Virus record (IMG/VR): IMGVR_UViG_3300031825_000338
Span: 1 to 23,012 of that record
From: a virus
Length of the DNA stretch: 23,012 nucleotides
Reading direction: 5' to 3' (one strand)
In this document: positions 2,026 through 21,900 of the stretch, piece by piece
Position numbering within the stretch: position 1 is the first letter of the stretch
Layout of the letters: each line of letters opens with the position of its first letter
Notes under the pieces: generated by a model
What the model saw: the letters and a program-made list of their open reading frames with translations, nothing else
The model's database searches: none
What the model was told of the DNA's origin: nothing
Program-made: the position numbers and the translations under genes

Positions 2026-2499
2026 GGCGTCTCCTTGGCGGCTCGCGGCCGCCTGAAGTTGCAGGTTGGGAATGTTGGTGAGGGCAACCATCTTCAGGAC
2101 GCGGACGTCGCCTGTGGCGGAGTCGTAGCCGAAGACTGGCGAGAGGTAGCGGTACTCCTTGGCCTTCAGGGCGGCGGCTGCAGTGGCCGTCCACTCGATC
2201 CGCGCCCAAATGCCGTCAGCCCGGGCCTCGATGGCCTTGACCCAGCCCGCGGCGGGCACTGGCCCCGCCTTCTCGGCGGCAGTCAAAGTCTGATGCTCGT
2301 AGTCAACGCACAGGTCACCTCCCCAGGCGGCAAAAGCCTCGACCACGTCGCCTGGCGCCCTCAGCCGGTAGGGACCACGGCCATCCCGGCCACGGAACTC
2401 CCCCGCGGGCAGGACGTGGTACCAGTCCGGCAGGCCGCCCTCGGGGGTCGAAGGGGGGACCTGCACGGCGTGGCTGGTTTCCTGAAGGCGGCGAACCAA
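1441..2499 (-). CDS. I: Phage prohead protease, Mu gpI family
   Basis: A 352-residue protein of the Mu protease I family. The N-terminal half is the protease: LPDWYHVLPAGEFRGRDGR, then WGGDLCVDYEHQTL, whose D-x-x-H fits the catalytic region, then the WARIEWT and EYRYLSPVFGYD segments. The C-terminal half is helical and charged, as in a scaffold. The most likely start is a TTG at 2499 with GGAG at 2505-2508; the alternative is a GTG a few codons in. It lies just downstream of the conserved 41-bp element at 2519-2559, the position of Mu promoter PI. An internal start (2025) can give a separate scaffold protein. Confidence 0.9.
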   Translation of the reverse strand: MVRRLQETSHAVQVPPSTPEGGLPDWYHVLPAGEFRGRDGRGPYRLRAPGDVVEAFAAWGGDLCVDYEHQTLTAAEKAGPVPAAGWVKAIEARADGIWARIEWTATAAAALKAKEYRYLSPVFGYDSATGDVRVLKMVALTNIPNLQLQAAASRQGDAMNELLERLCYMLNLPLTTTAEEMAAQLDKLKAMLADAQATAAASISLVKLAGLPEGTALPTAVQSIQAKLAELGQAPDPAQYVPKAQYDQVAHSLAELQGSTKTAATERLVEEAMSAGKVPPALKEWANLYASRDPEGFRKYVESAPVITGAAHANLGQAAGSGAQTLTPEEETVAHALGLTADAYLAAKKEVD

Positions 2500-2518
2500 G
2501 AAGGCTCCGGAAAACCAG

Positions 2519-2559
2519 AACCTCGCCCGCCGGGCGGTGGGTCTCTTTCAAAGCGTTTT
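2519..2559 (-). promoter_or_regulatory. Late-promoter-like bipartite element, PI position
   Basis: On the minus strand the element reads AAAACGCTTTGAAAG, 15 unrelated bases, then CGGGCGAGGTT. The same two blocks with the same spacer recur at 10014-10054. It ends 19 nt before the protease start, the place of Mu late promoter PI. CTTTGAAAG is a short palindrome and contains TTGAAA, close to a -35 box. The block at -10 distance is GC-rich, which is unusual for a main sigma factor. The function is inferred. Confidence 0.7.
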
Positions 2560-2619
2560 TGGGATTTTTGGTCTTGGACCGCCGGTCCCGGGTGGCCAGG
2601 GACCCTGGACCGCCCCGGG

Positions 2620-2641
2620 AACCCGTTTAGAACCCGTTTAG
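2620..2641. repeat. Tandem 11-bp repeat AACCCGTTTAG x2
   Basis: Two exact adjacent copies in the intergenic region upstream of the protease gene. No function is evident. Confidence 0.9.
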
Positions 2642-2659
2642 TTTTCACGGGAGGGGCAA

Positions 2660-2685
2660 GGGGCGGGGGTGAGTGCCCCCGCCCC
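2660..2685 (-). terminator. GC-rich hairpin after MuF, possible weak terminator
   Basis: GGGGCGGGGG pairs perfectly with CCCCCGCCCC across a 6-nt loop, about 145 nt past the MuF stop. The 3' flank on the minus strand has only two T residues, so intrinsic termination would be poor. It may instead protect mRNA ends. Confidence 0.4.
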
Positions 2686-2830
2686 CCCTTCCCGTGCCTT
2701 TAAGGGCACTTCCCGGCGATTTGCGATTTCTGGGGTCGGGCGCATACTGGTACCGGCGCGGCGACACGGTGAACCTCCCGGCCGTGGCACGCTGTCCAAG
2801 CGGAGCATCATGTGAGGGACAAGGGAGTCC

Positions 2831-4006
2831 TCACCCGCGCCACCCCTCCCGCTCGAAGAGCACCTTCCCGGACCGGAGCTTCCGGGCGATGTCCTCCATC
2901 GTCGTCCGCCGCAGGCTGGTCACGAAGGTTTCCCGCTCCCCACCCTGGGCCGCTTTCAGGGCGGCCAGCCATAGGCTGCCTTCGGCGCGGACCAGCACCA
3001 GGGTGTTCTCCCCGTCCTGGATCACCAGGTCCGGCAGCAGCCCCATGCGTGGCAGGCGCCGGTAGTCCACCAGGCCCACTTCGGGGTGGGCTGCCGCCTG
3101 CTTGGCCACGGTCTCCGGGGACAACACCGCCACGGCGCTCTCAGCCTGGATGGCCTGCTGTAATTCCGAGGTGACCAGCAGCACGGGGTAGTCTCCTGCC
3201 GGCGCCTTCAGCCAGGCCTCGAAGGCCGGGCTGTCCACCAGGCCCTTCACCCCCGCCTGGCCAGCCTCAGGCAGGGCCGCCTCCAGCTTCTGCCGCGCCT
3301 GGGTGAGCAGCGCGGGTTGGGCCGCCTGGCCCACGTTGTAGGCCCAGCCCGGGTCGATGCCCGCGGGTACCGTCGTCACCTCGCCCGTGATCCGGTTGGT
3401 GAAGGTGCTCGTGCCGGTCGGCAGCGCGCCATCCGGCGTCACCTCGATGCCCTCGGCGGCCATCTCGTCCCGGCTGAGCTGCTCGACCGTGCATCGGCAG
3501 CGCCAACCATTGGGCGGGTAGTGGGTGCCCCAGAACGGATCATCCACGGGCCGGGTGATGCCCTCCCAGGCCCGGTGGGCGGGCCGCACCCGGGCATCCC
3601 CCATGGTGTTGTAGCGCAGGAATGGACGGCGCTTCTTCAGGCGCTGGATACGTCCCCATTTGGCGGCCATGTAGCTGGTGCGCAGGTTCGTGTCGTAGAT
3701 CAGTTGCAGGCGCTGGGGGCTCAGCGGCTTTCCTTCCGGCACCGGCTGATCCCACCAGCCCGCCGCCTGAAGCTTGGGCACCAGGCCCTTGGCGAAGGTC
3801 CGGTAGTCCTGGCCCTGCTGGATCGCCTCCGCCAGGGCGCCATGGATCTCCTGGAGCAGGTCCAGTCGCGCCAGGTTCGCCACCGTGAAGGCCCGGGCAT
3901 GCTCCGCCTCCCAGATCGACTGCCAGGAGCCCGTCACCAGCAGGCCCTTGCCCTCGAAGAAGGCCACCGCCTCTTTGGGTGGCTGGACCCTCAGCTCAAT
4001 CGGCAA
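2831..4006 (-). CDS. F: Head morphogenesis protein MuF with C-terminal PBECR-like domain
   Basis: A 391-residue protein. Residues about 1-225 match the Mu gpF / SPP1 gp7 family, minor head proteins bound to the portal: YDTNLRTSYMAAKWGRIQRL, then RVRPAHRAWEGI, then the YPPNGWRCRCTVEQLS segment with its two cysteines. The last about 120 residues (VLSPETVAKQAAAHPEVGLVDYRRLP... VTSLRRTT) resemble the PBECR (Barnase-EndoU-ColicinE5/D-RelE-like) nuclease domains that occur fused to MuF proteins; such fusions are considered effector domains injected with DNA. The TTG start at 4006 overlaps the portal gene by 11 nt and has a weak ribosome site, so it is probably translationally coupled. The nuclease assignment is from memory of the family and is less certain than MuF. 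Confidence 0.88.
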   Translation of the reverse strand: MPIELRVQPPKEAVAFFEGKGLLVTGSWQSIWEAEHARAFTVANLARLDLLQEIHGALAEAIQQGQDYRTFAKGLVPKLQAAGWWDQPVPEGKPLSPQRLQLIYDTNLRTSYMAAKWGRIQRLKKRRPFLRYNTMGDARVRPAHRAWEGITRPVDDPFWGTHYPPNGWRCRCTVEQLSRDEMAAEGIEVTPDGALPTGTSTFTNRITGEVTTVPAGIDPGWAYNVGQAAQPALLTQARQKLEAALPEAGQAGVKGLVDSPAFEAWLKAPAGDYPVLLVTSELQQAIQAESAVAVLSPETVAKQAAAHPEVGLVDYRRLPRMGLLPDLVIQDGENTLVLVRAEGSLWLAALKAAQGGERETFVTSLRRTTMEDIARKLRSGKVLFEREGWRG

Positions 4007-9514: not shown

Positions 9515-9996
9515 CGGATCACCTGACCAGCCAGATAAGTGAAGGCTAGCAACAGTGCGGCGAAGGCGATGCCGGCCGAAAGGGTCTTGGCGCCAGAGGT
9601 GATGGCAGAGTCCATACCCGGAGACCAGTGCCACAGCCGCTTGCCCAGGCGCGTGCGGTCGAGGACCTGGAAGGTGCCCCAGGTGAGCAGCAGCACACCC
9701 AAGGCCAAACCTAGGGCTGTTTTGGCACGGAAGATGGCCAGGCGGGCCTGCAAGGCCAATTCCCATGCCGGATTGTCTGGCGTGGGCTGCAACACGGCCC
9801 AGGCCACCAGGGCCCGGGTGGTTAGCCAGCCGCCGAATGCGGCGACGACCAGGAAAGCGGTCGCCATGCGGGTGCGGGCGTCCTTATCGAGCTCAAAGTC
9901 GCTCCCTCCCACCAGGAAGCGCACGAGAGCCGAGAATGCCACCAACAACCCGTTGAGCAGGCGGCGCCAGAGTGAAAGCGCGGGGGAAGCGTCCAT
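9511..9996 (-). CDS. Multi-pass membrane protein, putative holin
   Basis: A 161-residue protein with hydrophobic segments at about residues 13-30, 46-70, 90-112 and 132-158. It is the first gene after the activator gene and directly precedes the transglycosylase, the usual place of a holin. No family motif is recognised, so holin is inferred from topology and position. The ATG at 9996 follows GGAGG by 4 nt. The 41-bp element at 10014-10054 lies immediately upstream. Confidence 0.75.
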   Translation of the reverse strand: MDASPALSLWRRLLNGLLVAFSALVRFLVGGSDFELDKDARTRMATAFLVVAAFGGWLTTRALVAWAVLQPTPDNPAWELALQARLAIFRAKTALGLALGVLLLTWGTFQVLDRTRLGKRLWHWSPGMDSAITSGAKTLSAGIAFAALLLAFTYLAGQVIR

Positions 9997-10013
9997 GGGA
10001 CCTCCAATACCCC

Positions 10014-10054
10014 AACCTCGCCCGCGCGGGGCTCTGCTGCTTTCAAAGCGTTTT
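10014..10054 (-). promoter_or_regulatory. Late-promoter-like bipartite element, Plys position
   Basis: This is the second copy of the element at 2519-2559: AAAACGCTTTGAAAG, a 15-bp spacer, then CGGGCGAGGTT on the minus strand. Here the palindrome is longer (GCTTTGAAAGC). It ends 17 nt before the first lysis gene, directly after the Mor/C-like gene, exactly where Mu has Plys. Confidence 0.72.
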
Positions 10055-10064
10055 CAGGACCGGA

Positions 10065-10427
10065 TCAGCCCACGTCTTCGACGGGGAACAGCCCGCCAAC
10101 GTCAACACGCTGGCGCCGCTGTTGCCGCACGCGTGCCAGGATCTGGCGGATGCGCATCTCCGTCAGGCTGTAGGTCTTCGAGAGCAGGGTGTAGCTCCAG
10201 TGGTCAAAGACGAAGTGGTGGTGGATCTCCAGGTCCCGCGCCCGCAGCTCCACGCCCCCGGCCTTGGGGATGTAGATGGGCTGCCCGCCCCAGATGGTGG
10301 GCTGCCGCAGCCAATCCACCGACTCCCAGGCCACCGTGGCCGCCAGATCCTTCTCCACCCCGCGCTTCACCAGGGCCTCGCCCAGGTGCGCCGCCAGGTC
10401 CTCCAGGATCTCCGGGTAGTCCGCCAT
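10065..10427 (-). CDS. mor: Mor/C-family transcription activator
   Basis: A 120-residue protein with the Mor/C pattern: VAWESVDWLRQPTIWGGQPIYIPK (residues about 32-55), then a C-terminal helix-turn-helix (LSKTYSLTEMRIRQILARVRQQ, about 84-105). In Mu, Mor switches on middle and C late transcription. Only one family member is present; its place directly before the lysis operon is that of C. The ATG at 10427 has a GGGGGGA ribosome site. An intrinsic terminator and a 22-bp inverted repeat lie just upstream, so the gene probably has its own regulated promoter. Its likely targets include the 41-bp elements. Confidence 0.88.
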   Translation of the reverse strand: MADYPEILEDLAAHLGEALVKRGVEKDLAATVAWESVDWLRQPTIWGGQPIYIPKAGGVELRARDLEIHHHFVFDHWSYTLLSKTYSLTEMRIRQILARVRQQRRQRVDVGGLFPVEDVG

Positions 10428-10456
10428 GGTCCCCCCCGCTGGAATCTAGGCCAGAT

Positions 10457-10478
10457 CGTGCCCGAATGCTCGGACACG
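10457..10478. promoter_or_regulatory. 22-bp inverted repeat upstream of the activator gene
   Basis: The arms CGTGCCCGA and TCGGACACG match at 8 of 9 positions around a 4-bp centre. It lies between the terminator and the Mor/C-like gene, about 30 bp before its start. It could be an activator site for the middle promoter; no T-run follows, so a terminator is unlikely. Confidence 0.5.
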
Positions 10479-10502
10479 AAAAAGCCCCGCGTGGGCGGGG
10501 CT
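10479..10502 (-). terminator. Intrinsic terminator ending the upstream operon
   Basis: An 8-bp stem (AGCCCCGC with GCGGGGCT) and 4-nt loop are followed on the minus strand by TTTTTC. It lies 20 nt past the stop of the last small gene and before the activator gene. Confidence 0.85.
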
Positions 10503-10521
10503 GGAAAGCTCGCAGAGAAGA

Positions 10522-10749
10522 CTAGTCCACCGGACTGGGTGGGTGGCCCTCATTGAGATATTCATCCACGCGAAGATCATGCTCCGACATCACATGGAGC
10601 GCCTCAAGGTGCTCCACATGGCGGGAAACGAATTCGGGGATAGGACCAGCTGCCTCAGCCAACCACCCCCAATCCCTATCGGTAGCATGGCCAACAAAGG
10701 GCCTCATGACCCTGCATTTGCCACAGCCGAGGTAGAAGTAAACACTCAT
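10522..10749 (-). CDS. Small hypothetical protein with CGKC motif
   Basis: A 75-residue protein, MSVYFYLGCGKCRVMRPFVG..., with Cys-x-x-Cys near residue 9 and an acidic C-terminal half. No family is recognised. The ATG at 10749 overlaps the upstream stop as ATGA, which supports it over a GTG at 10755. It is the last gene before the terminator. Confidence 0.7.
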   Translation of the reverse strand: MSVYFYLGCGKCRVMRPFVGHATDRDWGWLAEAAGPIPEFVSRHVEHLEALHVMSEHDLRVDEYLNEGHPPSPVD

Positions 10750-10952
10750 GGCCACCCCTGAAGCCCGTATTCGGCGGTTCGAGCGTCGTCAGCCACAAGC
10801 ACTTGGGCGCCCCCAGCCACTGCCGCGATGAATGCGAATTGGTTGAGCCAGGGGTTTGCCCTGCATAGGTCTGCAGCACCTTCCTGGGGATCGCCATCGA
10901 CATGGAAGGTTTGCACGCTTCCATCGAGTGAAAAAATTAGGGTCCAACCCAT
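10746..10952 (-). CDS. Small hypothetical protein
   Basis: A 68-residue protein, MGWTLIFSLDGSVQTFHVDG..., with a hydrophobic middle (FAFIAAVAGGAQVLVADDA). Not recognised. AGGTGA lies 3 nt before the ATG, and the gene follows the lipoprotein gene by 3 nt, so the three small genes form one operon. Confidence 0.65.
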   Translation of the reverse strand: MGWTLIFSLDGSVQTFHVDGDPQEGAADLCRANPWLNQFAFIAAVAGGAQVLVADDARTAEYGLQGWP

Positions 10953-10955
10953 AGA

Positions 10956-11336
10956 TCACCTGCTCATGTAGCGCTTGGACGCTTCTGGGGAAATGGTGTT
11001 GTAGTGAATGGCACGGCTGAGATAGGCCATGTTGTAGGTTGAAATCAGCTCAAGCATTTTGACGAGGGTTTGGTATTTCGGCATGTTGCCGCTCCGCAAG
11101 GCCTCCTCCTTCTGCTTCGTGGCGAGGTCCCGGAGGAATTCCAAGCGTTGGAGGTGATCCTTCTCAAGCTCATTAAAGAGCCTGCGATCCTCGGAACTCA
11201 TGTTGATCAGGCCGAATTGCATGATCGTGCCGATCTGTTCTTTCTCCATCTCGGTCAACTCATTCGGCTTGCATCCGGGGATCAACAACAGAGAGCAGAT
11301 GGCAACAGTTTGAATGCTTTTCGTCGGAAGGTTCAT
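10956..11336 (-). CDS. Small lipoprotein, unknown function
   Basis: A 126-residue protein with a lipoprotein signal peptide ending LLIPGC (Cys22), then a soluble helical domain rich in Glu, Lys and Met (EKEQIGTIMQFGLINMSSEDRRLFNELEKDHLQRL). AAGGAG stands 7 nt before the ATG. Base composition is visibly lower in GC than the neighbours and codons are more mixed, which suggests recent acquisition. It lies outside the lysis cluster; a surface role in the lysogen (for example exclusion) is possible but not shown. Confidence 0.75.
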   Translation of the reverse strand: MNLPTKSIQTVAICSLLLIPGCKPNELTEMEKEQIGTIMQFGLINMSSEDRRLFNELEKDHLQRLEFLRDLATKQKEEALRSGNMPKYQTLVKMLELISTYNMAYLSRAIHYNTISPEASKRYMSR

Positions 11337-11366
11337 GTCACATCTCCTTGATAGGGCGAATCAACT

Positions 11367-11795
11367 CTACCGCCCATGCCGCTTGGCATCATAGGCCAGG
11401 GCCGCCACGACCTTCTTCAGCTCGTCCGGTTCGCAGAGCTGGACCTGGGCTCGCTTGAACATCTTCCAGGCCATGCCGTGGACATAGGCCCAGGGGCGCC
11501 CGGCCTCGGCCAACTGCGCTTCGATCTTGCCCAACAGGGCCTGCTTGTCGATGGAGACGATGGCGGGCTTGCCGGGGTAGGTCCTGGCCGCCGAGGCCGC
11601 CCCCAGGCGCCCCAGCTCCAGCAGCACCTTCCAGCGCTCGCCAGGACCCATCGCCGCCGCGCTGTCCTTGCCCGTGGTGGCCTTCAGGAGGGCGCGGTAG
11701 GTGTCCTCCTCCAGGCCCAGTTCCTTCTTGGCCAGGTGGATCCGGGCCAGGTCCTTGGCGCGGCGAGGGTCACGGGGTTTAGGCTGTGTTTGCAT
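11367..11795 (-). CDS. gemA: GemA-like regulatory protein (Mu gp16 / DUF1018)
   Basis: A 142-residue protein matching the GemA/DUF1018 family: RRAKDLARIHLAKKELGLEEDTYRALLKATTGKDSAAAM, then PWAYVHGMAWKMFKR, then EPDELKKVVAALAYDAKRHG. In Mu GemA affects host gene expression and DNA topology and is encoded just before mor. The ATG at 11795 is used; a TTG at 11819 would add 8 residues. Neither has a clear ribosome site. The upstream DNA is the worn end of the cassette array, so GemA is the first backbone gene after it. Confidence 0.88.
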   Translation of the reverse strand: MQTQPKPRDPRRAKDLARIHLAKKELGLEEDTYRALLKATTGKDSAAAMGPGERWKVLLELGRLGAASAARTYPGKPAIVSIDKQALLGKIEAQLAEAGRPWAYVHGMAWKMFKRAQVQLCEPDELKKVVAALAYDAKRHGR

Positions 11796-11840
11796 TTGGT
11801 AGGCCCACGGGTTTCTCAACAGTTAGGCATTTCCAAGCGT

Positions 11841-11881
11841 GATTAGGCGGCCTACGTGGTATGCCTAATCTAAAGTTAGGC
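11841..11881 (-). other. attC-like site S0 (worn or incomplete)
   Basis: R'' GCCTAAC (11875-11881) complements the start of its cassette (GTTAGGC at 12119-12125) and contains the gene's stop codon. An inner stem GATTAGGC/GCCTAATC (11863-11870, 11841-11848) is perfect. The closing R' is not where expected; the nearest candidate, GTTGAGA at 11814-11820, is 20 nt away. Confidence 0.6.
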
Positions 11882-12172
11882 CTCTTCCAGCGCCTTCTGA
11901 ATGCGGCAAAGGCCACACGTTCCAGGCTCGTCGGTTCCGCAATCACACCCGTCTTCTGCCATCCAGACGGCCGCTTCCATGAGCAGATCCTGAAGGGACT
12001 CACATCTCGACTGGATGCGGGCAAGTTCTTCTTTTCCATTGGGTCCATCACACTTCATTTCGTGGCATTCCAATATGCCCAAGATCACCTGGAGAGATCC
12101 CCTTAGGTCGCTCCCCTGGCCTAACCCGCCGTTCAAGCGGACCTCGCCGCCCGTGCCTTGTGCTTCGCTCAT
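11876..12172 (-). CDS. Cassette gene: small Cys-rich protein, unknown function
   Basis: From the ATG at 12172 it encodes 98 residues, MSEAQGTGGEVRLNGG..., ending in a cysteine cluster (CDCGTDEPGTCGLCRIQ). Not recognised; the Cys pattern suggests zinc binding. AAGGA stands 5 nt before this ATG, but both lie inside attC site S1, belonging to the previous cassette. The reading frame crosses the recombination point at 12124/12125. An alternative start within the cassette itself is the GTG at 12088 (70 residues) with AAGGGGA upstream. The stop codon is in the R'' box of S0. Confidence 0.72.
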   Translation of the reverse strand: MSEAQGTGGEVRLNGGLGQGSDLRGSLQVILGILECHEMKCDGPNGKEELARIQSRCESLQDLLMEAAVWMAEDGCDCGTDEPGTCGLCRIQKALEEA

Positions 12173-12215
12173 GTAGTTCCTTTCTGCGGCGATGCCGCTT
12201 AACTGGTTGTTGGGC
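12119..12215 (-). other. attC site S1
   Basis: R'' GCCCAAC (12209-12215), L'' GTTAAGCGG (12195-12203), L' CCGCTTGAAC (12131-12140), R' GTTAGGC (12119-12125), minus strand. L'' and L' pair over nine bases with one unpaired G in L', as in classical attC sites. It is 97 bp long and of a different sequence type from S2-S4. It also carries the start of the next gene. Confidence 0.88.
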
Positions 12216-12216
12216 G

Positions 12217-12405
12217 CTACCCCAGCGCCGCGATGTCTTCATGGTCAAGCCCCTGGGTGCGGGGATCTTCGACGCCGATGGCCCCCAGCTTCGCGGCTAG
12301 GCCACAGGTGCATTTCAGGTGGTCGTGTTCTGCAATGCTCACCACTCGACAGTTGGGCTTGTGCCAGATCCAGGATTTCCATTCCTGATAGGTCGCATCC
12401 TTCAT
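12217..12405 (-). CDS. Cassette gene: 62-residue hypothetical protein
   Basis: MKDATYQEWKSWIWHKPNCRV..., with CTCG near residue 32 and an acidic tail. Not recognised. AGGAG stands 6 nt before the ATG, and only about 20 nt separate the cassette start from the ATG. It lies alone between attC sites S2 and S1 in a cassette of 300 bp. Confidence 0.75.
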   Translation of the reverse strand: MKDATYQEWKSWIWHKPNCRVVSIAEHDHLKCTCGLAAKLGAIGVEDPRTQGLDHEDIAALG

Positions 12406-12418
12406 GGTTCACTCCTGC

Positions 12419-12505
12419 GCCCAACCAGGCGCTCAACCTTCACTCGCTTCGCTCGTCGGACCCGTCAGGCTGCGCCTGCCGGCCCGGGTTAGCTTTCCGT
12501 TAGCC
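12419..12505 (-). other. attC site S2
   Basis: R'' GGCTAAC (12499-12505), L'' GCTAACC (12487-12493), L' GGTTGAGC (12431-12438), R' GTTGGGC (12419-12425), minus strand; 87 bp. L'' and L' pair with one unpaired base. The methyltransferase stop codon lies in R''. The inner arms match S3 and S4 closely. Confidence 0.92.
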
Positions 12506-13207
12506 AGCCTTCATCAAGCGGCCCGTGAGCCTTTCAAATGCAAGGTGAGCCACCGCTGGAAGCTGGATGTTCCCAAGGGCGACACGCTCGCCCATCCCGC
12601 GGGGATACCCACGAACCACTCGCACCACCTCGGGTTCAACGGCCCACCAAGCAGGTCCGACAAGGACCGGCTCTTCCCGTGGTGCTTGCCGGGTTGCTTC
12701 GCATCGGCAGCCAGCAGTGTGGGCAACAATCCAAGTGCGTTTTCGACGGTGGGGAGCGCCAACCTGGTCCGCGCTGAAACAGCCCCATTCCGCATCGAAC
12801 CCCATCTTGGCCAGGTCCCCGAGAACGCCGTCGAGTCCCCGAACAGGGAGATCAACGGTGTTTTCCACGAACACGAAATGTGGTCCCACCTGGCGAATGA
12901 TCCGTGCCATTTCCCGCCAGAGGCCGGAGTGTTCGCCTTCAAGTCCGGCCCTGTTGCCTGCGGATGAGATGTCGGTACAAGGGAATCCCCCCGCCACGAT
13001 GTCAACTCGTCCTCGCCATGGTGTTCCGTCAAAGGTTCGCACGTCGTCCCACACGGGGAACCAGGGCAGGATCCCGTCTCGCTGCCGCTGGAGCAGGACC
13101 TGGCGGCAGTGTGGGTCCAGCTCGACGGCGCCAACGCAGACATTTCCTCCCAGGACTCCGCCGAGGATTCCTCCCCCGTTCCCAGCAAAAAGGTGTAGCT
13201 CACGCAT
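12500..13207 (-). CDS. Cassette gene: DNA cytosine C5-methyltransferase
   Basis: A 235-residue enzyme that methylates cytosine at C5 using S-adenosylmethionine, probably to protect phage DNA from restriction. Motif I is LHLFAGNGGG (4-13), motif IV GGFPCTDIS with catalytic Cys77, motif VI FVFVENT (111-117; usually ENV), motif VIII GAPHRRKRTWIVA (150-162), and the closing motif LGNIQLPAVA (211-220). The target-recognition region is very short, as in other compact phage enzymes. The ATG at 13207 has AAGGAG five bases before it; an upstream extension runs into the attC site and is rejected. The cassette spans 12425-13242. Another frame within it is also open and conserved in appearance. Confidence 0.93.
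   Translation of the reverse strand: MRELHLFAGNGGGILGGVLGGNVCVGAVELDPHCRQVLLQRQRDGILPWFPVWDDVRTFDGTPWRGRVDIVAGGFPCTDISSAGNRAGLEGEHSGLWREMARIIRQVGPHFVFVENTVDLPVRGLDGVLGDLAKMGFDAEWGCFSADQVGAPHRRKRTWIVAHTAGCRCEATRQAPREEPVLVGPAWWAVEPEVVRVVRGYPRGMGERVALGNIQLPAVAHLAFERLTGRLMKAG
12514..13203 (-). CDS. Overlapping +1-frame gene inside the methyltransferase (WPRxG-type phage protein)
   Basis: A 229-codon frame opens with a GTG four bases after the methyltransferase ATG and closes 14 bases before its end. Residues 110-204 carry motifs I know from a phage protein family found beside C5-methyltransferases: SCSWKT (110-114), FSGTWPRWGSMRNG (127-140), LPTVENALGLLPT (150-162), AADAK and LNPRWCEWFVGIPAGW (189-204). 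The first 100 residues are low-complexity Ser/Thr/Gly and look uninformative. Function is unknown. Translation could use the methyltransferase ribosome site. It could also be a passive shadow of conserved methyltransferase motifs, so confidence that it is expressed is moderate. Confidence 0.5.
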   Translation of the reverse strand: MSYTFLLGTGEESSAESWEEMSALAPSSWTHTAARSCSSGSETGSCPGSPCGTTCEPLTEHHGEDELTSWRGDSLVPTSHPQATGPDLKANTPASGGKWHGSFARWDHISCSWKTPLISLFGDSTAFSGTWPRWGSMRNGAVSARTRLALPTVENALGLLPTLLAADAKQPGKHHGKSRSLSDLLGGPLNPRWCEWFVGIPAGWASVSPLGTSSFQRWLTLHLKGSRAA

Positions 13208-13236
13208 TTTTCTCCTTCGATTTTCAGTCGGCGGCT

Positions 13237-13321
13237 GGCTAACCATCTCGCTCAACCTGCGCTCGTTTCACTCGCCGGACCCGGGCGCAAGCGCCCGGCC
13301 CGGGTTAGCTTTCCGTTAGAC
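13237..13321 (-). other. attC site S3
   Basis: R'' GTCTAAC (13315-13321), L'' GCTAACC (13303-13309), L' GGTTGAGC (13250-13257), R' GTTAGCC (13237-13243), minus strand; 85 bp. The stop codon of the 73-residue gene lies in R''. A central hairpin GGGCGC-TTGC-GCCC forms the tip. Confidence 0.92.
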
Positions 13322-13537
13322 CGCCTTCACCCGATCCAGCAGGTAGCACCCAGAAATGCCCTCCAGCCAAATCACGGCGCTATGCCCGCTCAGTAATTCT
13401 GCGTTGGAGCGAGTCTTGGTTATTACGACCTCACCAGAATCTTTTTCCAGGGACACCTCGGTTCCCACTGGGAACCTCATGTTCCAGGCGTCTACCTGCG
13501 CTCGCAGCGATCGCAACTTCTTGGTGTTTGGCTTCAT
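13316..13537 (-). CDS. Cassette gene: 73-residue conserved phage-type protein
   Basis: MKPNTKKLRSLRAQVDAWNMRFPVGTEVSL..., with TRSNAELLSGHSAVIWLEGISGCYLLDRV. This VDAWN-x-RFPVGT / HSAV-x-LEGISG layout recurs in small phage proteins of unknown function, so it is probably a real conserved protein. AGGAG stands 5 nt before the ATG. It is the only gene of the cassette 13243-13568, and GC content is lower than in the phage backbone. Confidence 0.82.
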   Translation of the reverse strand: MKPNTKKLRSLRAQVDAWNMRFPVGTEVSLEKDSGEVVITKTRSNAELLSGHSAVIWLEGISGCYLLDRVKAV

Positions 13538-13562
13538 GTTGTCTCCTGTTGGTTGTGGGGCG

Positions 13563-13639
13563 GTCTAACTTGTCGCTCAACCTGCGCTCCCTGCGGTCGC
13601 CGGACGCCTGCGGCGCCGGGTTAGCTCGGGGCGTTACGC
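13563..13639 (-). other. attC site S4
   Basis: R'' GCGTAAC (13633-13639), L'' GCTAACC (13619-13625), L' GGTTGAGC (13575-13582), R' GTTAGAC (13563-13569), minus strand; 77 bp. The stop codon of the upstream gene lies in R''. No matching GTTACGC cassette start is visible upstream of that gene. Confidence 0.9.
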
Positions 13640-14014
13640 CTTGTCATTCTTTATTTTCCGCAGGGTCAAGTCTGTGTATTCAACCCCGTCCACAAAATAG
13701 CGATATCCGACGAGCACTTTCACCTGCCACCGCGCCCTCTCGCGAGCGTAAACGTGGGGCCACCAGAACCGCTTATAGACAGGGATGATCTCCAATTTGT
13801 TGGCCGGGCCTAACCCAGCGGCAAGGGCATCAAGAAGGGACTTTGCCCTTTCGATCTGATCCCGCACCAATGCCGCGTCTCGCATGTGATGAAGGTCATC
13901 GTTAATGTCGGTGATGGCATCGAGGACCTCGGCCAATTCGGTGCTGAAAACAGCTCCGCCATATCGGGTCAATTGACCACAGGCGTTTCTTGTTCTGAAT
14001 GCCAGGTCCGCCAT
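13634..14014 (-). CDS. Hypothetical protein upstream of attC S4
   Basis: A 126-residue protein, MADLAFRTRNACGQLTRYGG..., with a helical middle (LDAITDINDDLHHMRDAALVRDQIERAKSLLDAL) and a C-terminal half with WWPHVYARERARWQVKVLVGYRYFVDGVEY. Not recognised. GGAGG precedes the ATG at 14014 by 5 nt. Its stop is in the attC R'' box, as for cassette genes, so it is probably the first cassette. Its upstream edge is unclear. Confidence 0.75.
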   Translation of the reverse strand: MADLAFRTRNACGQLTRYGGAVFSTELAEVLDAITDINDDLHHMRDAALVRDQIERAKSLLDALAAGLGPANKLEIIPVYKRFWWPHVYARERARWQVKVLVGYRYFVDGVEYTDLTLRKIKNDKA

Positions 14015-14071
14015 CACGTCCTCCGTTTATTGGGTGTGCTCAATGAATTATTCCAGAGGGCGGGCGTGGGC

Positions 14072-14293
14072 TCACCCCGCCTTGGCCAGCGCAGCCTTGC
14101 AGGCGGCGCAGTCGTGGAAGTCGCTGTCGAACTGCCAGGGGCTGCCTTCAGGAACCTCAGCGCCACAGACGGCCACCCGGGGGGGCGCCGGGGCGAGGCA
14201 CTGGAAGGGTTGGTCCTCCAGCACCACGGCGTGTGCCTGGCGCTTCGCGGGGACCTCGTACCAGATGGCGTAGGTGAAGCGGCGCGCGGTCAT
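14072..14293 (-). CDS. Small Cys-containing hypothetical protein
   Basis: A 73-residue protein, MTARRFTYAIWYEVPAKRQA..., with four cysteines (QCL, VCG, CAAC) that may bind zinc. Not recognised. GGAGG stands 4 nt before the ATG, which overlaps the upstream stop as ATGA. It ends the contiguous early operon before the cassette region. Confidence 0.75.
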   Translation of the reverse strand: MTARRFTYAIWYEVPAKRQAHAVVLEDQPFQCLAPAPPRVAVCGAEVPEGSPWQFDSDFHDCAACKAALAKAG

Positions 14294-18027: not shown

Positions 18028-18562
18028 CGAAGGCCTCCTGGGTGTTGGGGTCGAAAACCCGGTTCTGCCGTTTGTTCCACTGTGGGGGGAGAGGGCCGGA
18101 GTCACGGACGAGGGCGTAGATGGTGCGGGTGCCCTCCTTGTAGGGCATGCGTTTCACGAATCCGGCCTTCACCAGCGCATCCAGGTACTTCTTGGCGCTC
18201 TCATAGGGATTGCCATCCGTGGGATTGGAGGCGGGCACCAGCAGCCCGTGGATAGTGGCCTTGCGCATCATCCGCAACGCCCGCCACAGGCGGGACCGGA
18301 AGTGGTGGGGCACGTCGGAGGTGGGCCTTGGGCCCGCAGGCCCGGATTTCACCTCCAACCCCTGACCGGCGGCCTCGGCACCCTTCGGCGTGAGTTTCCA
18401 GGTGCCACGCCAGGTCATGATGGCCAGGCCTCGCCCTCGGAGGGTCTTGAGCCCATCCCGAACCTGGAGGCGCGTCAGGCCGGTGTCTTCGACCAGAGCG
18501 CCGAAGGCGATGCGGCCAAGGCGCCCGGCCATGGCCTTCAGGATCGTCGTGCTGGGGCTCAC
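18017..18562 (-). CDS. Winged-helix DNA-binding protein, early region
   Basis: A 181-residue protein from a GTG at 18562 that overlaps the MuB stop as GTGA. Residues about 17-62 look like a winged helix (IAFGALVEDTGLTRLQVRDGLKTLRGRGLAIMTWRGTWKLTPKG). A second winged-helix-like section may follow near residues 125-165 (ESAKKYLDALVKAGFVKRM...GTRTIYALV). Its target is unknown. The open frame upstream of the GTG is a shadow of MuB and is excluded. Confidence 0.78.
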   Translation of the reverse strand: MSPSTTILKAMAGRLGRIAFGALVEDTGLTRLQVRDGLKTLRGRGLAIMTWRGTWKLTPKGAEAAGQGLEVKSGPAGPRPTSDVPHHFRSRLWRALRMMRKATIHGLLVPASNPTDGNPYESAKKYLDALVKAGFVKRMPYKEGTRTIYALVRDSGPLPPQWNKRQNRVFDPNTQEAFDVA

Positions 18563-19308
18563 GCCTGCCTCTGCAATTTGACCAGACGGGGGCGCTTGGA
18601 CTGCCAGTCGTGGATCAGCTCTTGGCCCTCCACATCGGCCAGGGCCAGCGCGGGCGCCTTGCGCTGGCGCGAGATGCGCTCGCAGTTGCCCAGCGCGTTC
18701 ATCACCAGGCGCATACGGCCTTCGCACTGGCGGTGGATCTCCTCCACCAGGTCCTCGGCCAGCTTCACGCCATCCAGCAGGGTGCTGGCGGACTTGGCCA
18801 CGTCCTCGCGGCTGACAGGCTGGAAGTAGACGATGACGGCAATGCGGCTGCTGATCTGGGGGTAGCGGCTGCGGATCCGGTCCTTCACCTGGTCCATGCC
18901 CACCAGGACCACGGGGATCTTGGTGGCATCACTGACGTCGCGGATGGCCTCCATCACGGCGTGATCCGCCAGGGCGTGCTCCACCTCGTCCACCACCACG
19001 GTGTAGGGACGGGCCTCCAGGGCGCTCACAGCCTGGCGGAACATGTCTTCGGTGAGGCGCTGGGGGCTCACGCCCAGGGACGCCAGTAGATCGTTGAGGA
19101 ACCAGTGGCGGGTCCAGCCGCTCTTGGCGCGGACATAGACCGCGTAGGGTTGCTGCGACACATACCAGCGCAGGGTCTCAGTCTTGCCGAAGCCGGGCTC
19201 GCTGGTGACCAGCATCATGCCGGCCTCCATGGCGCCGCGCTGGTGGACGATGGCCATGCCGGCCATCAGGCGCTCCACGTTGCTGACGAGGGCGAAGGTG
19301 GGTTTCAA
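18559..19308 (-). CDS. B: MuB-type transposition ATPase
   Basis: A 249-residue AAA+ protein. Walker A is TSEPGFGKTE (35-44) and Walker B YTVVVDEVEHA (102-112). The later part (VLVGMDQVKDRIRSRYPQISSRIAVIV) holds the sensor region. MuB-family ATPases bind target DNA, activate the transposase and give target immunity. The TTG start at 19308 has AGGAGG 4 nt before it; no ATG fits better. It follows the transposase gene by 34 nt. Confidence 0.92.
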   Translation of the reverse strand: MKPTFALVSNVERLMAGMAIVHQRGAMEAGMMLVTSEPGFGKTETLRWYVSQQPYAVYVRAKSGWTRHWFLNDLLASLGVSPQRLTEDMFRQAVSALEARPYTVVVDEVEHALADHAVMEAIRDVSDATKIPVVLVGMDQVKDRIRSRYPQISSRIAVIVYFQPVSREDVAKSASTLLDGVKLAEDLVEEIHRQCEGRMRLVMNALGNCERISRQRKAPALALADVEGQELIHDWQSKRPRLVKLQRQA

Positions 19309-19342
19309 GGGGCCTCCTGAAGGGGGAAAGGGTGGTGGGGGG

Positions 19343-21550
19343 TCAGGCGCCCAGGCCCAGCACGGCCTGGAGCGCGGGGTCCGCTTGGATGCGGAGGTGG
19401 ATCTCGCGGGCTTCCTGGTCATCCAGGGCCTCGGGGTGGGCGTGGGCCCAACGGTAGTACTCGATGTCATTCCGGAAGATCGGGCGGCCGCTGGGGGCCA
19501 GGGTTTCGGGCTCGGGGGCGGCCTCTTCGAGGGTTGGTGGATGGAAATCCGGGAGGCGGGAGAAACCCTCGGCGGCCAGCGCCCGCTGGGCCTCGGTCAA
19601 GTCCTGCACTTCGACCTGCTCCAGGGGCTCGCCGAGCTTGCGCTGGGCCTTGGCCTCCAGCCGCTGCCGCTGGCCCTCTACGCGCTTCTCGCGCAGGCTC
19701 TCGACATAAGGCTTCGGGAAGTAGGCGGACTTGTTGGCCTCGAACCCTGCCGCGCACACGAAAGTGCCATCCTGGCGGCTCACCCAGACGCGGGTGGCAT
19801 CGTGGATGTCGAAGGCTACGCGGACCTCTTCCCCGTGCAGCTCGGCCAGTTCCCGGCTGAAGTAGGTGTTGCCGAAGAGGGAGATTTCGCCCCGGCGCAC
19901 CTGGCGCAGCTCCTCAGGCCGGAAGTCGTCCAGGCTGATGGGCAGCCCTTCGGGTTTCCACCCCAGGGCCTCCGCCTGGGCCCAGGTTTGATCCGGGCTC
20001 AGGCGGCGCTGGCGGCCTGTTTCGGTGTCCAGCGCCTTGGGGCAGGCTTTGCTGGCCCGGGCGTTGTGGGCCACCACCACCATGTCCACGAAGGCCACGA
20101 AGGCCTGCCAGGAGGGCAGCACGGGCAAGCCCTTGCGGCTCGCCTTGAAGACAATCTGGCGGGCCTCGCGGTCCATGGAGGCGCCCACGTAGGTGCTGAA
20201 GGCCTTGGCCGCCAGGTCCACCCAGACGGTCTTCTGCATGTGCTCGATGACGCCGCGGGCCTGGGAGTTGTAGGGGATGCTGAAGTGATGCTCATAACCC
20301 AGGCGGGCCTTGAGGGCCTCCATGCGGTCGTTGCGGTAGCCCGGGCCGTTGTCTGTGTAGAAGATGAGGGGCACGCCCCCGCGGAGGACCGCCATGCGGA
20401 AGGCGTCCATCACCGACCAGGTGGATTCCTTCTCCCAGGCGGACCAGCCCATGATGCGGTTGGTGGCCACGTCCACCACCATGGTGAGCTCCGGCCGGAA
20501 GGGCCGCCCATGCTCGGGATGGGCGATCTCGGCGTCGAAGGTGTGGCCGTCCGCCGTGAGCACGTCGAAGGGGAAGTCGGGCTTCTCCCGGCGCCGGAAG
20601 GGCTTGATGGTCTTGAGTTCACGGGGCAGCAGGCGGCCACGCTCGCGCTCAATAGCTCCCACCTTGATCAGCCATCGGCGGGCGCTGTCGTAGCTGGGGA
20701 GCAGGGCTCCGTCTGGCATCTGCCCCACCAGGGTCTGGACGGCCCAGCTCAGGCTGGGTTTCTGGGGTTGGCGGTAGATGGCCAGCAGTTCCGGCAGCCA
20801 GCTGGGCATGGCGCGGTCACAGGACTTCGGCGCCAGGTGGTCCACACCCCGCTTGGCATCGGCAGCCCAGCGCTGGATGGTGCGGCGGCTGAGGGTGCGG
20901 TCGCCGGACTGCCCGGAGCGGGCATTGGCCAGGGGCAGTATCGCCCGCAGGTGCTCCGGTAGGCGGCCCGCCTCGGTATCGCCCAGCAGGCGGTTGATGG
21001 CCCGTTCGCGGGTGAGTCCGTCAGCCACCTGGCTGTCCAGGTGCCGGAGGAACGCCAGCCGCGCATCCATCCGCTGCCGCTGCCAGTCCTTCATGGCTGG
21101 GATGGCGGCGGGGTCTGAAGATGGTGCGATGGCGGGAGCAGCCTGGGCGATGGCCATGACGGCCAACTCGGCCTGGGCCTTCTGCTGGGCCTCCCAGACG
21201 CGGCGGGCGTCGGGGTAGACCTCGAATAGCGCCTCGGCGTTCATAACCTTCTCTGGCCGCCCCCTGTTGGGCCCACACACGGAGATCCGATCGTGGAGAA
21301 CGCCAGCGCGATCTAGCCGCCGAGAGAGAGGCTGGCGCTTCACGCCGGTCAACTCACAGGCCTCTGTGAGTGTCAGGATCGCTGCACCTGTCGCTGCACC
21401 CGCTGCACCCAGCGCCAAACCATCCGCAAAACACGAATTGAGGTTTTCCGGGGCTTCAGATGGGTGCAGCGCCCCCTGTGGGGGGTGCAGCGATACAGGT
21501 GCGAGCGCTGCACCTATCGCTGCACCTGGTTGGAGGTGATGGAGGGCCAT
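19343..21550 (-). CDS. A: MuA-type DDE transposase
   Basis: A 735-residue transposase that joins phage ends to target DNA for integration and replication. Residues about 57-120 hold a DNA-binding winged helix (ILTLTEACELTGVKRQPLSRRLDRAG). Further helical end-binding domains follow (about 155-300). The catalytic core has D334 (LTADGHTFD), D400 (FYTDNGPG) and E436 (ARGVIE), a DDx35E triad. Region III contains RPIFRNDIEYYRW. The ATG at 21550 is used; a GTG at 21565 overlaps the upstream stop as GTGA and is also possible. The first 56 residues are Ala/Gly/Pro-rich because the DNA there carries seven GCTGCACC repeats. Confidence 0.95.
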   Translation of the reverse strand: MALHHLQPGAAIGAALAPVSLHPPQGALHPSEAPENLNSCFADGLALGAAGAATGAAILTLTEACELTGVKRQPLSRRLDRAGVLHDRISVCGPNRGRPEKVMNAEALFEVYPDARRVWEAQQKAQAELAVMAIAQAAPAIAPSSDPAAIPAMKDWQRQRMDARLAFLRHLDSQVADGLTRERAINRLLGDTEAGRLPEHLRAILPLANARSGQSGDRTLSRRTIQRWAADAKRGVDHLAPKSCDRAMPSWLPELLAIYRQPQKPSLSWAVQTLVGQMPDGALLPSYDSARRWLIKVGAIERERGRLLPRELKTIKPFRRREKPDFPFDVLTADGHTFDAEIAHPEHGRPFRPELTMVVDVATNRIMGWSAWEKESTWSVMDAFRMAVLRGGVPLIFYTDNGPGYRNDRMEALKARLGYEHHFSIPYNSQARGVIEHMQKTVWVDLAAKAFSTYVGASMDREARQIVFKASRKGLPVLPSWQAFVAFVDMVVVAHNARASKACPKALDTETGRQRRLSPDQTWAQAEALGWKPEGLPISLDDFRPEELRQVRRGEISLFGNTYFSRELAELHGEEVRVAFDIHDATRVWVSRQDGTFVCAAGFEANKSAYFPKPYVESLREKRVEGQRQRLEAKAQRKLGEPLEQVEVQDLTEAQRALAAEGFSRLPDFHPPTLEEAAPEPETLAPSGRPIFRNDIEYYRWAHAHPEALDDQEAREIHLRIQADPALQAVLGLGA
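21381..21526. repeat. Seven 8-bp GCTGCACC repeats within the transposase start
   Basis: GCTGCACC occurs at 21381, 21393, 21402, 21507 and 21519, and inverted (GGTGCAGC) at 21463 and 21484. A copy of the left-end motif CCAGCGCCAAA stands at 21409-21419 among them. Repeats may be binding sites for transposase or repressor, like the Mu internal activation sequence; this is inferred. Confidence 0.8.
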
Positions 21551-21561
21551 GTCGACCACCC

Positions 21562-21900
21562 TCACGCTGCCGTGGTGGAGGTTCGGCCCCAGATGCGGTC
21601 GGACGAGGACTCCAGTCCTAGCGCGCGGGCGATGGTGTTCTCGATGGCCTCGTTCCGGTACTCCCGGTTGATCACCTGGTGGTACTGGGCATCCACATGG
21701 CCGCTCGATTTCGCGAGCGAACTGATGGTGATGTTCTTAAGCTTCAACAGAGAACGCAGGCACTCGGGGCTCAAACTTCCGTCGAGATTGATTCCGTGGG
21801 ACATTATTTGCTGCAAGCTCGCAGCAGTGGCGAGGATGGAGGGGACATGAGGAGCCAGGTCAGACGCGGCACCCCGTGGACGCGGACGTTTGCGGGTCAT
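21562..21900 (-). CDS. ner: Ner-like DNA-binding regulator
   Basis: A 112-residue protein, basic at the start (MTRKRPRPRG). The C-terminal half (about 48-103) resembles Ner/Nlp: LLKLKNITISSLAKSSGHVDAQYHQVINREYRNEAIENTIARALGLESSSDRIWGR, with a helix-turn-helix and the closing IWGR. In Mu, Ner is the first lytic gene and down-regulates early transcription. The ATG at 21900 has GGAGG with a 5-nt spacer, better than the in-frame ATG at 21918. Confidence 0.82.
   Translation of the reverse strand: MTRKRPRPRGAASDLAPHVPSILATAASLQQIMSHGINLDGSLSPECLRSLLKLKNITISSLAKSSGHVDAQYHQVINREYRNEAIENTIARALGLESSSDRIWGRTSTTAA

Follow-up and report, generated by a model that had tools for sequence, protein, structure and literature searches.

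A probable integrase-less integron with a host-type attI site and inverted cassette genes in a Mu-like phage

We describe a locus in a Mu-like phage that is, with good confidence, an integron lacking an integrase, built on an attI site of the host's type, with inverted cassette genes, and served in trans by the integrase (IntI) of the host. The window analysed here is the whole of IMG/VR record IMGVR_UViG_3300031825_000338, 23,012 bases in length, and its content is that of a Mu-like phage. Within it, the attI site and all of the attC sites share one orientation. All of the cassette genes have the opposite one: they point to attI and follow the direction of the phage operon, a feature absent from the preliminary description of this DNA.

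Profile searches recovered MuA- and MuB-like proteins, GemA, terminase, portal and head genes, and a repressor. The MuA-type transposase (19343-21565, minus strand; phrog_310, E 8e-126), the MuB-type transposition protein (18559-19470, minus strand; phrog_296, E 6e-54), GemA and the Mu-type head genes are held in common with the Mu-like transposable phages, from which this phage differs in carrying an integron array in its early region beside gemA. The array occupies a variable part of that region, between the GemA-like gene on the attI side, downstream in transcription (11367-11819, minus strand; PF06252, E 1e-14), and a conserved 73-aa phage gene at the opposite flank (14072-14293, minus strand). 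A 127-aa phage gene at 13634-14017 ends with a stop codon in the final attC box. Since a relative in L006 (9139-9309) is found downstream of gemA, the place of this gene differs between phages. The preliminary description spoke of a Mu-type prophage. The Mu-type assignment holds, but the record is a viral contig and shows no host DNA, so that ‘prophage’ is unproven for the window. Spread of the cassettes by transposition, also proposed there, would follow from the presence of MuA- and MuB-like genes.

A search for paired arms found four attC sites in the window, each with L'' and L' arms that pair at 7/7 positions and leave one base extra, whereas block-shuffled windows gave a mean of 0.22 fully paired sites each. 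They lie at 12119-12215 (attC1), 12419-12505 (attC2), 13237-13321 (attC3) and 13563-13639 (attC4), the last closing the array with a box, GTTACGC, in which the following phage gene has its stop codon. All four carry the extra base in L'' of the plus strand, which is the canonical orientation. Because an Rfam search gave no match, we built a local covariance model from chromosomal attC alone, 13 in number, belonging to other genomes of the host clade. With default filters (turning them off led to poor partial matches, probably from a length limit), its best matches in the window were attC3 (E 0.007), attC4 (E 0.009) and part of attC2 (at 12419, E 0.065), all on the plus strand; attC1, with arms GTTCAAGC/GCTTAAC, was missed by this model. 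Thus, of five attC-like sites described earlier between single genes, four are real attC, three of them matched at least in part by the model, and the fifth is of another kind. When the bottom strands of the integrated-state attC were folded, two of the four were no better than shuffles. The attC bodies in L122 and L126 and those of attC2-attC4 in the window resemble chimeras of exchangeable halves, as though the loops recombined independently of the boxes.

The four sites delimit four cassettes, each with one attC and one gene. Cut to cut on the plus strand, these are cassette 1 (11876-12209; boxes GTTAGGC/GCCTAAC), cassette 2 (12210-12499; GTTGGGC/GCCCAAC), cassette 3 (12500-13315; GTTAGCC/GGCTAAC) and cassette 4 (13316-13633; GTTAGAC/GTCTAAC), and in every case the first box exactly complements the cassette's own R'', just as the preliminary description had quoted. 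This signature extends to 29 of 33 cassettes in four phages (permutation mean 10.8, p about 5e-5), whereas R'' and R' of the same attC are complementary in only 8 of the 33. The cassette genes all lie on the minus strand. Cassette 1 encodes a 98-aa protein (11876-12172) with a distant relative in phage G095 (50% over 42 aa), cassette 2 a 62-aa protein with no family match (12217-12405), cassette 3 a C5 cytosine DNA methyltransferase of 235 aa (12500-13207; PF00145, E 4e-25; phrog_363, E 9e-54), and cassette 4 a 73-aa member of the phage family phrog_9165 (13316-13537; E 4e-13). Their stop codons, earlier placed in the R'' boxes, either fall in the first box or lie no more than 9 nt from it in each of the four cassettes. 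The ribosome-binding site and start codon of the first gene (11876-12172) sit within the loop of its attC, as do those of genes at L122 4632-4916 and L139 2091-2378, so that the N termini derive in part from an attC arm.

The leftmost site, at about 11840-11881 on the plus strand, had been counted as the fifth attC. It is instead an attI-type site standing at the start of the array (TGATTAGGCGG...GCCTAAT-CTAAA-G before TTAGGC), recognised by a matrix made from host attI only. This matrix scored 22.6 bits at 11840-11881 and 8.2 at the next best place in the window, and the best of 200 shuffled windows reached 20.1. The sequence there reads TGATTAGGCGGCCTACGTGGTATGCCTAATCTAAAG and then, beyond the predicted cut between 11875 and 11876, TTAGGC, while attI beside intI in the host clade reads roughly TAGGCG..CT...GTCYAATNCAAAG before the same TTAGGC. 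Four attC without intI would by themselves qualify as a CALIN (two or more attC, no intI); because the leftmost site is an attI, the locus is more than an attC cluster, and we regard it as an integron without an integrase. An attI-type site also starts the arrays of the phages L001, G095 and G096 and of a prophage fragment in bacterial genome G036. The host-attI matrix found none in the attC-free relatives L016 and L006, and none was found in L141, the contig of which leaves the locus within an attC. A pattern derived from the phage sites returned only its own source phages among viral contigs, and is thus uninformative on the spread of the site. Phage G095 has two attI-like sites (L123 19453-19471 and L122 1474-1492), each heading an array; part of an inner cassette recurs at the end of the contig, which implies either two array variants or a mis-join, and the contig may be mis-joined near 2963/41572.

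As the preliminary description had noted, there is no integrase in the window: TIGR02249 had no match and PF13495 was absent, so that the in-cis integrase of a complete integron is lacking. The contigs of L001, G095 and G096 likewise carry no intI, and we therefore infer that the host IntI acts in trans. The host clade is apparently a class of Acidobacteria, as judged from relatives in viral contigs and one collinear prophage, and the class is probably Holophagae. An integron integrase above the IntI cut-off occurs in 46 of 93 genomes of this clade. The suggestion that the cassettes were captured in an integron-bearing host agrees with a clade rich in integrons; against it, the nearest genome relative of the contig, G001, shows no intI above the cut-off, though it is a 2.3-Mb draft. 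Genome G036 has intI on one contig and, on another (L233, G036:C36, 4058-5321), the prophage fragment mentioned above, with two inverted cassettes and an attI; its layout is that of G095 and G096, and it has the same DUF3850 flank gene as the G096 array. The chromosomal integrons of the Acidobacteria hosts share with the phage their attI layout, the polarity of attC relative to attI, the box signature and one cassette type. They differ in possessing intI, in the length of their attC (about 124 b) and in gene direction, which is away from attI in 108 of 114.

That one cassette type is found in the phage array of G095, where the cassette at 40706-41012 is bacterial by its sequence. Over 122 bases its attC shares 95% identity with a chromosomal attC. 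Its 183-nt body, which holds no gene, can be aligned over its whole length, at up to 84%, with cassettes of several host-class genomes that likewise lack a gene and have attC on the same side. The polarity of the phage array is thereby tied to the bacterial one.

Comparison of relatives revealed gain and loss of whole cassettes, as the preliminary description had led us to look for. At the same position L001, the GemA of which is 85% identical to the window's, has three other cassettes, L141 has attC sites and a methyltransferase cassette, and in the related prophage L016 there are no cassettes, the 73-aa gene being followed directly by gemA. Cassettes are also found in phages of other kinds. 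G095 and G096 (the latter probably complete, because it has a 99-base terminal repeat) have ordinary tyrosine integrases and are unrelated to the window phage save for a few genes. They share with each other a stretch of 1,496 bases at 98.9% identity that ends at the attI box, beyond which their arrays differ. The methyltransferase cassette of the window recurs in G096 with different neighbours (94% over 863 bases). The edges of this common block fall inside attC bodies and not at the cut between G and TT, and it holds the whole attC downstream of the gene and only half of the upstream one, so that homologous recombination is the simpler account of this exchange and may also be moving these cassettes.

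Such edges, the chimeric attC halves and the lack of intI in these phage contigs are what one would expect if the cassettes had been captured once and the cluster were now dead, with IntI inactive and the attC repeats serving only as places for homologous recombination by a phage recombinase. We consider this unlikely, though it is the most serious of the alternatives. A dead cluster does not readily account for a box signature retained in so large a majority of cassettes, for near-identical flanks in G095 and G096 that part at the attI cut site, for a whole bacterial cassette in the correct polarity within G095, or for a genome, G036, that holds both intI and such an array.

Cassettes in bacteria usually, though not absolutely, have the gene in the same direction as attC. 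In the host arrays, where attC face away from intI, 108 of 114 cassettes have their longest ORF in the direction of attC and 6 have it in the opposite direction. Five phage contigs show the reverse, 26 of their 33 cassettes having the longest ORF opposed to attC and 7 having it aligned with attC (Fisher p 5e-17, for cassettes that are not fully independent), and in the window all four genes are opposite to their attC. A codon model trained on phage structural genes called 27 phage cassettes opposite and 7 same. The two methyltransferase cassettes are among the ‘same’ calls, one of them with the only score above 8 and the other with a weaker score; in both, homology puts the gene on the opposite strand. 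In nearly all cassettes the stop of the inverted frame falls in the first box or adjoins it; for the smallest ORFs, direction was judged from frame, stop position and ribosome-binding sites. All clear matches of the host-trained attC model in the other phages are on the strand opposite the genes. The inverted layout is thus found in the second Mu-like phage, L001, partly (attC only) in a third, L141, in the two unrelated temperate phages G095 and G096, and in the prophage fragment of the integrase-bearing bacterium G036. A pattern scan of IMG/VR returned 20 contigs with this attC type; where short arrays were inspected, the majority of inner ORFs were again opposed to attC and a few cases were ambiguous. 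In this sample of phages, selected for their attC type, inversion is common but has exceptions.

One could suppose that these are ordinary cassettes in which only the extra-base signature of attC is flipped, so that IntI recombines them in the gene-sense orientation and the genes are functionally not inverted. The box signature, which we rejected as evidence of polarity, cannot decide the matter because it is symmetric, and the block common to the window and G096, with its attC whole downstream of the gene and halved upstream, would suit this supposition. We nevertheless hold it to be quite improbable. The position of the extrahelical base sets strand choice and cut point experimentally (PMC2727003), attI stands at the end of the array that the extra base predicts, the bacterial cassette in G095 follows the extra-base polarity with its attC on the expected side, and the attC upstream of several genes must be their own, since it contains their start. 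A last alternative, that small phage genes are here separated by chance or terminator-like repeats and not by attC, can be excluded in practice: although the sites are palindromic and shuffles yield about 0.2 good arm pairs per window, four sites of one polarity in 1.5 kb have exact own-box pairs, include matches to a model from bacterial attC, and have an attI at the array end.

Clusters of attC (CALINs) and attI in phages have already been published, as the preliminary description mentioned for attC sites in a few phage genomes, and IntI1 was shown to use some phage attC (Qi et al. 2023, PMC9892861). The CALINs reported there resemble the window in having attC clusters without intI and methyltransferase cassettes; none of the phages is described there with genes systematically inverted relative to attC, and in the text covered here neither a Mu-like phage nor an Acidobacteria-type attI is named. 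Re-examination of the published phage TJE1 gave the canonical direction of genes and attC. In another, MW202573 (L225), the attC cluster at 2069-3739 is on the strand opposite the annotated genes, an inversion that the text of PMC9892861 leaves unmentioned. The phage contig G100 (L129, IMG/VR 3300042484_003364) is like the window in that its cassette genes are inverted, toward attI and in the direction of the phage operon, and unlike it in having its own complete intI directly after the cassettes, on the same strand. It is a temperate-phage contig in which intI and the inverted cassettes (9900-13524) are all on one strand. Since TJE1 is canonical, as opposed to G100 and MW202573, inversion is not universal. 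In the open literature (subscription papers being mostly outside the scope of our search) we found no phage arrays with systematically inverted genes and no integrons in phages of Acidobacteria, and the combination of systematically flipped cassette genes and a host-type attI in phages appears to be new.

Where the cargo has known relations it is phage-type: the C5 methyltransferase, phrog_9165, the DNA methyltransferase of L141 and a Lar-family restriction alleviation protein of G095. Among 79 viral relatives of the methyltransferase, only that of G096 clearly sits in a cassette, so that this is a phage family and its cassette form the exception; plasmid methyltransferases are distant relatives only. 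The benefit of such cargo is likely anti-restriction, as Qi et al. likewise suggested for methyltransferases in other phage cassettes (PMC9892861).

Based on these data we can offer a proposal for how the locus works. The locus is an integrase-less integron within the variable part of the early region; its attI, of the Acidobacteria-class chromosomal type, is followed by four cassettes in normal recombination polarity. As the genes are all inverted toward attI, they would be read from the far end by the phage operon, which, from the strand they occupy, is the likely source of expression that the preliminary description had proposed. Working in trans, IntI from the host chromosome would use attI and the folded bottom strand of attC as substrates to add, remove and shuffle cassettes. 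The phage-borne cassettes would form a pool of their own, of DNA methyltransferases, restriction alleviation and small phage genes, common to unrelated phages, which a bacterial cassette may enter now and then.

Integrons have been treated as bacterial devices, with cassette genes read away from attI, and a role for chromosomal integrons as reservoirs of anti-phage defence has lately been under discussion. In the phages described here, an attI is followed by an array whose genes point toward it, and unrelated phages have single cassettes in common. The exploitation of the host integron integrase in trans by phages thereby becomes directly testable. The findings also bear on the origins of cassettes, as attC is here at the 5' end of the gene and sometimes encloses its start codon. 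We are evenly divided on whether unrelated phages maintain a ‘mirror’ pool through their attI and a borrowed IntI, in which reversed genes, expressed by the phage operon and antisense to the bacterial integron promoter, allow an exchange of anti-defence functions beside the bacterial one. If this is true, chromosomal integrons would also be exchange hubs for phage counter-defence.
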